Assembly (NCBI GenBank): GCA_016284115.1
Contig: JAEEOD010000147.1
Coordinates: 1-7,920, forward strand
Direction: 5' to 3'
DNA: 7,920 nt
Source of the DNA: Bacteroidaceae bacterium
Lineage (GTDB): Bacteria; Bacteroidota; Bacteroidia; Bacteroidales; Bacteroidaceae
Numbering within the stretch: the first letter of the stretch is position 1; each line of letters starts with the position of its first letter. Shown in pieces: positions 2,928 to 6,676 of the stretch. Position numbers and translations under genes: made by a program. The notes beneath the pieces are model-generated. The model did no database searches and had not been told where the DNA came from. It worked only from the letters and a program-made list of their open reading frames with translations.

Positions 2928-3085
2928 CAAAACTTTTCCTAAAATAACCCATGTTTAGTCAAAAACGTCTTATTGTTAATACAATTAATTGGATTTTCAT
3001 GTGTCTTTTTTCGATGAAATACTAAATATTTCACCTTATTTATTATAATTTTCTATTTTTATGGCTCTATTTACGAAAAAATGTG
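2928..3085. other. AT-rich spacer without a gene
   Basis: This stretch separates the leftward ATPase promoter from the rightward ncRNA promoter. It is strongly AT-rich with several T and A runs, and I see no credible coding frame, tRNA or hairpin terminator in it. It probably holds only the upstream promoter elements of the two divergent units. Confidence 0.5.
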
Positions 3086-3093
3086 TACTTTTG
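3086..3093 (+). promoter_or_regulatory. Bacteroidetes -7 box (TACTTTTG) for the structured RNA
   Basis: TACTTTTG matches TAnnTTTG exactly and sits in an AT-rich stretch 7 bp before the first base of the first RNA helix (GTTCCC at 3100). That spacing would put the transcription start at or next to the 5' end of the folded RNA. A convincing TTTG -33 box is not visible at the usual distance. The box is the only good rightward match I found between the ATPase gene and the lipid operon. Confidence 0.55.
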
Positions 3094-3099
3094 CAAAAT

Positions 3100-3405
3100 G
3101 TTCCCACGCCGATGCTGAATCCTTACGGATAATGCGGCTGGGTTGGGGACTAACATATGGAAAGGCGTTACTGTACGCTTTGAATTTGACGTTCTAAGAA
3201 TCTCGCAAGTTCGAACGACTAGTCAAAGACAAAGCAACGGAACGCCCCTTGGGATGATTATATCACCCTCTTTCGGATTAATTGCCGTTATTGGGACAAT
3301 ATATCATTCGGTGTGGGGCTTTCGCGTTGCTCGTTTCGACTAGTCGGGCAATGCGAGAGCCTTTAGAACGTGAAGCGAGCGACAGAACTGGCTCCACGCT
3401 TTTTT
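3100..3405 (+). ncRNA. Structured non-coding RNA of about 305 nt, family not recognised
   Basis: The segment folds by eye into two parts. The 5' stem-loop pairs 3100-3105 (GTTCCC) with 3145-3150 (one G-T pair), 3108-3111 with 3135-3138, and 3119-3122 with 3127-3130. The rest is one long nested rod: CGCTT 3176-3180 with 3373-3377; ACGTTCTAA 3189-3197 with 3363-3371; TCTCGCA 3201-3207 with 3352-3358; CGACTAGTC 3216-3224 with 3338-3346; AGCAACG 3233-3239 with 3325-3331; GCCCC 3244-3248 with 3315-3319; and ATGAT/ATAT 3254-3263 with 3299-3307. Possible outer pairs are 3165-3168 with 3396-3399 and 3171-3174 with 3382-3385. It has a promoter box just upstream and ends in a six-T run. It is not a tmRNA (no tag frame, no tRNA-like end), RNase P RNA or SRP RNA by their known motifs. 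A rod with internal loops is superficially 6S-like, but I cannot support that assignment. It may be an independent RNA or the leader of the downstream operon. Confidence 0.7.
3353..3405 (+). terminator. Terminator-like 3' end of the structured RNA
   Basis: A six-T run (3400-3405) follows directly on ACGC. Two alternative hairpins could precede it. In one, GCG and GAGCC (3353-3355, 3357-3361) pair with GGCTC and CGC (3390-3394, 3397-3399) around a long loop. In the other, AGCG and AGC (3374-3380) pair with GCT and CGCT (3391-3393, 3397-3400) with a three-base bulge. Neither is a textbook compact stem, so termination may be partial. The first competes with the rod, because 3353-3358 is also used in the 7-bp helix with 3201-3207. 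Confidence 0.5.
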
Positions 3406-3468
3406 CATGTGGTTAGTGATATGTATAAACAGCCGTCAAGGTAGCCAGCGGCAACAAAATGATGGCTG
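3406..3468 (+). promoter_or_regulatory. Short leader of the lipid operon
   Basis: These 63 bases lie between the T-run of the structured RNA and the first operon gene. I see no TAnnTTTG box in them and no strong Shine-Dalgarno sequence. Two ATGs at 3459 and 3462 are out of frame with the ketoreductase start. The lack of an evident promoter leaves open that the operon is transcribed by read-through from the RNA promoter. Confidence 0.35.
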
Positions 3469-4200
3469 ATGAAGTATATTCTAGTCACTGGTGGTTCAAG
3501 AGGTATCGGGAGAGCAATCTGCCAAAGATTGATCTCAATGGGCATGCCAATAATAATAAACTACAATTCTAATCATTCTTCAGCAAATGAAACGAAATCC
3601 CTAATCGAAGATATTGGAGGTAAAGCAGAACTTCTGCCATTTGATGTTTCGGATAAGACTGAAGTTGAAAAGGCTATTGGTTGTTGGGAACAATCTCATC
3701 CAGATGACTATATTGCTGTTTTGGTAAACAATGCTGGTATAAGGCGTGATAATGTAATGTTTATGATGTCAGATGATGATTGGCATCGAGTATTGGACAC
3801 TACACTTGACGGATTCTTTTATCTTACAAGATGTTTGCTGAAGCATATGATGCCACGTAAACGCGGTGGAAGGATTATTAATATTGCGTCATTGTCAGGT
3901 GTAAAAGGATTGCCTGGTCAAACAAATTACAGTGCTGCGAAAGCGGCTTTAATTGGTGCAACAAAAGCTTTGGCTCAGGAAGTAGCTCCACGCAATATCA
4001 CAGTAAATGCCATAGCACCAGGTTTTATTGAAACTGACATGACGAAGGATTTGCCAGAGGATGATTTGAAGAAATTGATTCCTGTTGGCCGATTTGGCAA
4101 ACCAGAAGAAGTCGCTGCCTTAGTTGCTTTTCTTGCATCTGATGAAGCAGCATATATAACAGGAGAAGTAATAAATATTAATGGAGGGTTATATACATAA
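3469..4200 (+). CDS. fabG: 3-oxoacyl-ACP reductase (FabG-type short-chain dehydrogenase)
   Basis: This is a 243-residue classical SDR, the normal FabG length. It would reduce the 3-keto group of an acyl-ACP with NADPH in the cytoplasm. Visible motifs are the cofactor-binding TGGSRGIG (7-14), NNAG (87-90), catalytic Ser141 in the NIASLSG strand, and Tyr154 with Lys158 in YSAAK. The sequence around 178-191 (VNAIAPGFIETDMT) and the tail ASDEAAYITGEV...NGGLYT are close to housekeeping FabG. It is the first gene of a tight operon, six bases before the ketosynthase, so it is likely a pathway-specific paralogue rather than the essential fatty-acid enzyme. That is inferred from context. The start at 3469 is the only reasonable one, because it places the TGGSRGIG motif at the usual distance from the N-terminus. 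Confidence 0.9.
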   Translation: MKYILVTGGSRGIGRAICQRLISMGMPIIINYNSNHSSANETKSLIEDIGGKAELLPFDVSDKTEVEKAIGCWEQSHPDDYIAVLVNNAGIRRDNVMFMMSDDDWHRVLDTTLDGFFYLTRCLLKHMMPRKRGGRIINIASLSGVKGLPGQTNYSAAKAALIGATKALAQEVAPRNITVNAIAPGFIETDMTKDLPEDDLKKLIPVGRFGKPEEVAALVAFLASDEAAYITGEVININGGLYT

Positions 4201-5438: not shown

Positions 5439-5945
5439 ATGAGACGAAGTCTGATATTATTAGTTTGTTTATTTTCATTGCTTTCAAGTTCATATGCTCA
5501 AAAAATGACAGAAGGTTCACTGGCCCCTCTAAAAAAAGGTGGGAAAACCAAAGTCATTTTGGATTTTAGCGATGCAAGTATACACGGAATGACAGTTGAA
5601 GATTTTGCAGTTTATGAGCAGGACTGGGAAATAGACAAACCAATCATTATAAGTAAATTCATGTTAGGATTGGGTGAAAAATGTCCAAGCATTCGATTTG
5701 GAACAGAACTGGATGGAGAAATAACTCTATTAGTGAAGGTTTTATCCATAAACACGAAAGGAGACTATGTCTGTGAGGCCATTATAATGAATAGCCAAGA
5801 AGAGAAGATAGCACATATTACTGATTTAAACGCAAGAGGTGGAACATTTGGATCTAAACTCAATCTTATCAAAGATGGAGCCGAACATACAGGTAAGAGC
5901 TTGGGAAAATTTCTAAAACGGACAATTGACAAATTGAGTAAATAG
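5439..5945 (+). CDS. Small secreted protein of unknown function, relative of the next gene product
   Basis: I do not recognise the family. The 168-residue product begins with a clear signal peptide: Arg-Arg at 2-3, a hydrophobic core to ~15, then SSSYA followed by Gln, suggesting cleavage after residue 20. There is no lipobox cysteine at the cleavage site, so it is probably a soluble periplasmic or surface protein rather than a lipoprotein. The mature part has alternating strands (KVILDFSDASI at 38-48, EITLLVKVLSI at 94-104) and a basic helical end (GKSLGKFLKRTIDKL). Its last third aligns by eye with the end of the next gene's product: a strand, a short turn, DL, then GTFGS...SLGKFLK. The gene starts 5 bp after the ketosynthase stop, so it belongs to the operon. 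A role in handling or placing a lipid in the envelope is a guess from context. Confidence 0.8.
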   Translation: MRRSLILLVCLFSLLSSSYAQKMTEGSLAPLKKGGKTKVILDFSDASIHGMTVEDFAVYEQDWEIDKPIIISKFMLGLGEKCPSIRFGTELDGEITLLVKVLSINTKGDYVCEAIIMNSQEEKIAHITDLNARGGTFGSKLNLIKDGAEHTGKSLGKFLKRTIDKLSK

Positions 5946-6043: not shown

Positions 6044-6676
6044 ATGAAAAAGATTAATCTTATCAAAATCGGGTTTCTTTCCGTTCTAATTTTAGCATCG
6101 CTTACCGTTTCCGCTAAAGGAGGACCGTTTAAAGTAAAACAAGGTGATCCTTTAGTTCTTTTACAGGAAAAAAAGAAAGCAGTTTACGAAATTGATTATT
6201 CCAAATTAATTATTGTTGACAAAAAAGACGCTGACAACAACATGGACTTTGAAACGTGGATGAAAGCGCAAGATGAAGACAATGATAAATGGACATCAGA
6301 TTGGGAATCAAAGGATAAAGCTGATTGTGATAAGGCTTTCCGCGAGCATTTTAATGATGAAGTTAAAGGTGGAATTCATCTTACAAAACTTGGTAAGGAT
6401 TATAAGGTAATTTTACGTTTTCTTACAATTGACTTTGGACCTGCCGCAAAAATGAAGTTAACAGGATTTAGCGGAGGTGAAGCTACGGCTAGTGGCGAAC
6501 TTGAAGTTTTAGACCTCAATACGAACGAGACTCTTCTTGTTCTCTCATTTTCAGACCTAAAGGGCGAAAGTAGTTTTAAGCAAATCGGACGATTAAAGGG
6601 CCTTTTTGAAAATCTTGGAGAAGAACTCTCGGATTTTCTAAAAGATTGTCAGAAAGCTGCTAAGAAGAAGAAGTGA
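6044..6676 (+). CDS. Small secreted protein of unknown function, second of a related pair
   Basis: The family is not recognised. The 210-residue product has a signal peptide (MKK, hydrophobic core ~8-20, TVSA then Lys), with likely cleavage after residue 24 and no lipobox. The mature protein is highly charged, with a Lys/Asp/Glu-rich middle (60-108) containing FETWMKAQDEDNDKW, then strands KVILRFLTIDFG (121-132) and ELEVLDLNTNETLLVLSF (152-169), and a basic KAAKKKK tail. Residues ~152-200 line up with 113-160 of the preceding secreted protein: matching strand pair, conserved DL, Phe, Gly-x-Leu and LG..L..FLK. The two are therefore probably diverged copies with the same fold. It is preceded by an AT-rich leader without a Shine-Dalgarno sequence and ends 31 bp before the methyltransferase ATG. 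A partner or envelope carrier role in the lipid pathway is inference only. Confidence 0.8.
   Translation: MKKINLIKIGFLSVLILASLTVSAKGGPFKVKQGDPLVLLQEKKKAVYEIDYSKLIIVDKKDADNNMDFETWMKAQDEDNDKWTSDWESKDKADCDKAFREHFNDEVKGGIHLTKLGKDYKVILRFLTIDFGPAAKMKLTGFSGGEATASGELEVLDLNTNETLLVLSFSDLKGESSFKQIGRLKGLFENLGEELSDFLKDCQKAAKKKK

Follow-up and report, generated by a model that had tools for sequence, protein, structure and literature searches.

A large covarying RNA ahead of a flexirubin operon belongs to an apparently undescribed Bacteroidaceae family and is a candidate transcription attenuator

What is the strongly folded RNA encoded just ahead of a flexirubin pigment operon in a rumen Prevotella (Bacteroidaceae), and does it stand alone or belong to the genes that follow it? 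We addressed this in a 7,920-nt stretch of DNA (the window), in which a preliminary description had placed a self-contained RNA of about 305 nt ending at a T-run. In order, the RNA is followed by genes for the reductase FlxB and a ketosynthase, then for two proteins (5439–5945 and 6044–6676, + strand) that begin with signal-like sequences and match nothing in Pfam or NCBIfam, and then for an FlxJ family methyltransferase. On the 5′ side, a divergent gene (1209–2891, − strand) encodes both Schlafen AlbA_2 and RecG C-terminal-like domains, and a 364-aa protein (3–1097, + strand) without a Pfam or NCBIfam match may resemble a mobilisation protein. The closest sequence is the RUG10775 contig (L001), from a rumen MAG of an uncultured Prevotellaceae, at 97% over 5,910 bases and 99.7% over 3050–3420. 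The FlxB gene has the RNA upstream in L001, in L002, and in L093 and L094 of two further genomes. When R1, the family model introduced below, was run against 80 loci fetched by the ketosynthase, some of them shortened by contig ends, three matched (L001, L002 and L035), and the copy in L035 lies 4 kb away from the ketosynthase. A 10-nt repeat at 2994 and 3402, considered as a target-site duplication, is absent from L002 and was therefore taken as chance.

The folding energy of 3086–3405 is −120.9 kcal/mol; 100 dinucleotide shuffles averaged −88.15 (sd 5.2), and none was as low (z −6.3). The nested long-range helices of the preliminary description are present, with 8, 7, 9 and 6 bp at 3190–3370, as are the separate 5′ stem-loop and the T-run that it named. 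The main features of the core and its surroundings are as follows, with alignment A3 described in the next paragraph.

3086–3093, + strand: TANNTTTG promoter box (TACTTTTG), read in the window sequence
3100–3150, + strand: 5′ stem-loop in the MFE fold; sequence differs between copies
3165–3178, + strand: P1 hairpin (GCG/CGC); the pairing of its loop to GGUAGA, PK1, is weak in the window copy
3190–3197, + strand: La 5′ strand CGUUCUAA, 8 bp with 3363–3370
3198–3212, + strand: hpA hairpin (GAA/UUC), its loop holding the Lb 5′ strand UCUCGCA (3201–3207); z 7.0
3216–3224, + strand: Lc 5′ strand CGACUAGUC, 9 bp with 3338–3346
3234–3239, + strand: P3 5′ strand GCAACG, 6 bp with 3325–3330
3240–3310, + strand: variable apical region (alignment A3)
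3338–3346, + strand: Lc 3′ strand GACUAGUCG, partner of 3216–3224
3347–3361, + strand: hpB hairpin (GGC/GCC), its loop holding the Lb 3′ strand UGCGAGA (3352–3358)
3363–3370, + strand: La 3′ strand UUAGAACG, partner of 3190–3197
3400–3405, + strand: T-run
3469–4200, + strand: flexirubin-type reductase FlxB, first gene 3′ of the RNA (NCBIfam NF053542, E 4.4e-121)

The window RNA is real and one of a large, apparently undescribed family. We built a sequence-only model, R1, covering 103 positions of the 3′ part of the RNA, from 29 copies including the window, which itself scores 91.2 bits as one of these building sequences. A BLASTN search at E ≤ 1e-3 recovered relatives from 90 of the 200 genus genomes. 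R1 matched in 65 of 100 genus genomes (E ≤ 1e-3), and at E ≤ 1e-4 in 118 of 201 family genomes (at most 14 matches per genome), 25 of the 38 genomes of the genus of G550, and 22 of 247 order genomes. Among 395 phylum genomes there were four with matches (E ≤ 1e-3), which include the centre genome and two weak and partial cases. In 300 kb of control sequence, taken as 20 regions from six of these genomes, R1 had no match at E ≤ 0.01. R1 yielded 87 matches, or 86 once a second, weak one in L253 was set aside. Leaving out L239, L181, L233, L227 and L272 (missing, odd or weak 5′ half, or contig end) and the near duplicates L183, L128 and L267 gave alignment A3 of 78 copies. A held-out set comprised 60 high-scoring R1 matches with near duplicates kept, of which L435 was dropped from swap tests for its weak core, leaving 59. 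On single contigs, G857:C54 and G866:C8, pairs of matches lie about 0.9 and 2 kb apart, as if each neighbouring gene had its own leader.

Copies also occur in Bacteroides finegoldii, a named species of the human gut (strain TSDC17.2-1.1, record NZ_OY725942.1), and on viral contigs. L133 as query returned one B. finegoldii record and two unverified phage contigs, and L232 returned two phage contigs, one of them already obtained with L133; R1 confirms two of three records fetched through these queries. The copies in L128 and L133 are themselves on viral contigs, and five of 12 pattern-matched viral contigs have a copy. The patterns AAAGCAACGGKARATG and GGGCAATGCNAGAGCCTC retrieved 70 and 3 viral contigs, respectively; R1 matched none of 71 newly fetched loci, and the remaining two of the 3 contigs from GGGCAATGCNAGAGCCTC were copies already known. 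A 20-base pattern from the 5′ hairpin matched no viral contig, L175 as query found no match in plasmids, and the window sequence found none in plasmids or phages.

Covariation among homologues, on which the preliminary description would have its RNA judged, is strong. In A3 a structure of 56 pairs has 89.3% of its cells paired, with 40 pairs changed on both sides, and its covariation of 0.353 compares with 0.162 (sd 0.005) in shuffles, none of 500 reaching it, and with at most 0.110 when slid. In partner-swap tests, which preserve segment make-up and leave the relatedness of copies in the z values, La reached z 34.9 and Lc z 33.3 over the 78 copies, while four unrelated segment pairs stayed between −0.6 and 0.6; in the 59 held-out copies the values were 27.7 and 24.7 (control −1.3). 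Three column pairs of La (39–333, 40–332 and 41–331) show all four Watson-Crick pairs and are paired in 96–99% of copies. Both helices are hypervariable in sequence among copies while complementarity is kept within each copy, and their columns are about 46% alike even where the core identity of copies exceeds 90%. The window RNA shares the marks of the family: an R1 match, the 5′ core, and its own copy-specific La and Lc. By column, 39–44/327–333 (La) and 93–98/302–309 (Lc) of A3 evolve far faster than the remaining RNA with pairing kept. The two helices might serve as a private lock against pairing between paralogous copies; one test of whether paralogues in the same genome avoid shared La/Lc sequence gave no clear difference.

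The fold goes beyond one long nested hairpin: two hairpin loops kiss, a helix closes the core, and the loop of a 3′ hairpin pairs back. The highly structured RNA of the preliminary description stands, and a single long nested hairpin is an incomplete view of it. The kissing contact, Lb, is a 7-bp loop-loop pairing of hpA with hpB (3201–3207/3352–3358). Covariation is clear in hpA; hpB hardly varies, though three copies carry compensated changes at one pair. P3 (z 8.9) is likewise almost invariant, five of its six positions being paired in 97–100% of copies. Another candidate helix, P2, found no support in the swap test (z 1.8). An ORF at 3143–3343 was rejected as protein-coding on one-base gaps within the frame in several copies, with pairing kept, as judged by eye in the alignments.

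We compared this RNA with known families. No Rfam 15 covariance model matched in the window at E up to 5. On 18 loci with relatives searched at E up to 0.5, none matched the RNA, the only matches there being two sub-threshold ones to microRNA models in L108, outside it. These searches bear out the earlier suggestion that it may be an undescribed RNA, with no match on it to 6S, tmRNA, RNase P, SRP, known riboswitches or introns, and ARAGORN found no tRNA or tmRNA. The suggestion of a diverged 6S RNA is further at odds with up to 14 matches per genome placed directly before co-directional genes. GOLLD, ROOL and OLE are free-standing RNAs, whereas this RNA appears tied in cis to the next gene and does not match their Rfam models. 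It resembles them in being a large, conserved and intricately folded bacterial RNA, as they are presented in the available part of PMC12286853. With riboswitch and T-box leaders it has in common the 5′ position, a large conserved core, a hairpin followed by a T-run, and exclusive pairings of the terminator strand; it differs in its unrelated downstream genes, its kissing loops and hypervariable helices, and in having no known ligand or Rfam match. The put and EAR antitermination leaders similarly precede operons of varied function, but this RNA is larger, has a terminator-like element on its 3′ side, and comes without an identified partner protein. A literature search found no description of it, and an unnamed earlier listing in supplementary tables is possible. 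Published comparative RNA candidates include, in the portions available, two reported to be confined to Prevotella in a single data set, close to uvrC; the candidates measure 38–132 bp where a length is given, and none described there fits this RNA. The available passages of PMC8040213 do not describe it, nor do those of PMC11109978 and PMC8632094, in whose main text "Bacteroid-" and "Prevotella" are absent.

The RNA does not end at the T-run. A closing helix and a hairpin extend the structure 3′ of it to 3452, short of the start codon at 3469, and the pairings of this part, with the alternatives that involve it, are as follows.

3149–3159, + strand: P0 5′ strand ACUAACAUAUG, pairs with 3406–3417
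3311–3318, + strand: P5 5′ strand GUGUGGGG, alternative partner of 3392–3399; z 8.8, held-out 5.3
3326–3337, + strand: P4 5′ strand GUUGCUCGUUUC, pairs with 3372–3383 and overlaps the P3 3′ strand; z 6.4
3370–3397, + strand: T, terminator-like hairpin (GUGAAGC/GCUCCAC, one mismatch); z 10.0
3388–3393, + strand: PK2 5′ strand CUGGCU, pairs with the P6 loop 3443–3448 (AGCCAG); z 9.3, held-out 8.5
3406–3417, + strand: P0 3′ strand CAUGUG GUUAGU, partner of 3149–3159
3432–3452, + strand: P6 hairpin (GCCG/CGGC); stem z 13.2

P0, which spans the T-run, gives 16.39 against 14.81 (sd 0.30) after partner swap. The P6 stem has at least 4 bp in 103 of the 125 copies that have a site, out of 137 examined, and PK2 takes the form GGCUCC/GGAGCC, GAUUCCC/GGGAAUU or CAGCGACCC/GGGUUGCUG in other copies. 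Since P0 and P6 covary beyond the T-run, the proposed self-contained RNA of about 305 nt is too short; its start probably lies near 3100 and its 3′ end, with P6, at 3452. In 76 of the 78 copies the MFE fold has T closed; its median energy is −11.2 kcal/mol and its mean z, relative to mononucleotide shuffles, −2.1. T, P5 and PK2 all use the strand just 5′ of the T-run, CUGGCUCCACG, which therefore has three competing partners. P4 and P5 are alternatives to P3 and T whose variation consists chiefly of one-sided G-U changes; one column of P5 is paired in only 49% of copies, and the set of P2, P4 and P5 has a covariation of 0.258 against 0.224 shuffled. By sequence comparison and folding alone, T, P5, PK2 and P4 supply the terminator-like hairpin and the mutually exclusive alternatives expected of an attenuator.

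The flanks of the RNA are also characteristic of the family. As proposed for the window, a promoter box, of the Bacteroidota type, precedes the RNA: 67 of 78 copies have TANNTTTG at 25–130 nt upstream of the core, where mononucleotide shuffles predict 5.1. At least five T occur near the place of the T-run in 64 of 78 copies, and 14 have fewer than five consecutive T. A generic sigma-70 promoter and terminator scan, whose scope excludes Bacteroidota promoters and loops longer than 8, called neither here. We defined the first gene as an ORF of at least 70 codons and used all 86 copies of the first set, two of which end within 600 nt. The first gene is co-directional in 78 of 84 copies, as expected if the RNA is a 5′ leader, and in 70 of 84 it starts no more than 260 nt away; 54 of these 70 starts fall 44–112 nt after the R1 match. 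For the held-out copies the figures are 59 of 60 and 48 of 60, with 42 of the 48 at 44–113 nt. Comparison among copies demonstrates, at the level of sequence, most of the pairings and the position before co-directional genes. Two copies without a T-run, L132 and L256, have no nearby co-directional gene either, an anecdotal observation.

On balance we read the RNA as a cis-acting 5′ leader of about 350 nt, of an undescribed family, that would be co-transcribed with the flexirubin operon from TANNTTTG and act as a transcription attenuator. It probably controls whether the downstream accessory genes are transcribed. In the proposed mechanism, the strand CUGGCUCCACG would pair with the adjacent GUGAAGC to form hairpin T, and the U-run that follows would stop transcription. 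Alternatively, the compact core of La, Lc and the kissing loops would hold P4, which occupies the 5′ strand of T; while P4 is held, P5 could take the 3′ strand of T and let the polymerase pass. After passage, P6 would take the strand before the T-run (PK2), P0 would close, and the operon would be expressed. The trigger could be a ligand, a protein, or a signal that alters polymerase speed.

The leader could instead act on translation or mRNA stability or, like put or EAR, cause processive antitermination by modifying RNA polymerase, which we consider rather unlikely. P6 and PK2 do lie near the start codon, and in P0 the T-run can find partners in A's upstream of the core, so the T-run may be just one strand of a helix. 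However, three competitors for the strand before it are what an attenuator predicts, and such an antiterminator would come without a known partner protein. That the RNA is a free-standing gene acting in trans and ending at the T-run, with the downstream gene reached by read-through only or near by chance, seems to us decidedly unlikely. Such a gene would account for the RNA's own promoter box, T-run and terminator-like hairpin, its compact fold and its many copies per genome. Against it, P0, P6 and PK2 covary using sequence past the T-run, among 144 first genes 137 are co-directional and 118 start no more than 260 nt away, and a second TANNTTTG box between the T-run and the ORF is rare (3 of 70). 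Taken together, up to 14 matches per genome, co-directional genes directly 3′, and covariation on both sides of the T-run favour a leader over a free-standing gene. Very improbable, finally, is the insertion into leaders of a mobile or catalytic RNA such as an intron, ribozyme or transposon-related guide RNA. There are many copies, some on viral contigs, and in L004, L005 and L006 the FlxB gene, first of its operon, has no RNA and a TANNTTTG box nearby instead. Against this, no Rfam intron or ribozyme model matches, the RNA keeps a steady position between promoter box and gene, and the listed first-gene Pfam families (25 of 42 and 25 of 38) share no mobility gene. A reverse transcriptase gene, as a retron would have beside its RNA, was found neither among those listed families nor in the seven window ORFs scanned.

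The genes that the RNA precedes are diverse. Family scans covered 68 of 70 first genes in the first set, all 48 in the held-out set and, as controls, 67 of the 69 genes sampled from 79 candidates. LRR_5, of the BspA type, was found in 8 of the 68 first genes and in 6 of the 48 held-out ones; among the 67 controls it is not one of the six families with at least two members, single-member families being listed in part. Other first genes encode BREX BrxP and DISARM-like DrmD helicases (2 of 68 each) and one type III methyltransferase, and kinase, VWA and HSP70 matches are present as well. Copies in L128, L133 and L191 precede PAPS-reductase-type genes, that of L191 being BrxP by PADLOC. PADLOC models match control genes too, chiefly through methyltransferases (27 families against 109), and we therefore claim no enrichment for defence. 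Signal-peptide-like or lipobox starts were found by a crude rule in 32 of 70 first genes and 19 of 69 controls. A leader dedicated to defence was dropped as an explanation, BspA-type LRR and secreted or lipoprotein-like genes being frequent in the wider contexts. By eye, L177 and L182, and likewise L186, L240 and L397, are similar operons that carry the leader in different genomes; some leader-operon pairs therefore look conserved.

The shared downstream pathway of a metabolite riboswitch was not found among the first genes, which come from unrelated families. Because the downstream genes are unrelated, the pattern suggests a trigger in the general state of the cell rather than one pathway metabolite. 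Only tentatively do we extend this to a new class of regulatory RNA, in which the two-arm kissing fold would be a standard leader cassette sensing cell-wide state ahead of many unrelated accessory operons (flexirubin pigment, BspA-type surface proteins, BREX, DISARM-like and type III modification).

An RNA this large, supported by covariation and matching up to 14 times in single genomes of a group that is dominant in gut and rumen, is without an Rfam match. The single strand common to T, P5 and PK2 makes the proposed switch directly testable. If the RNA is an attenuator, it would be a common layer of control for accessory genes of the Bacteroidaceae, including some for phage defence and many for surface or secreted proteins.
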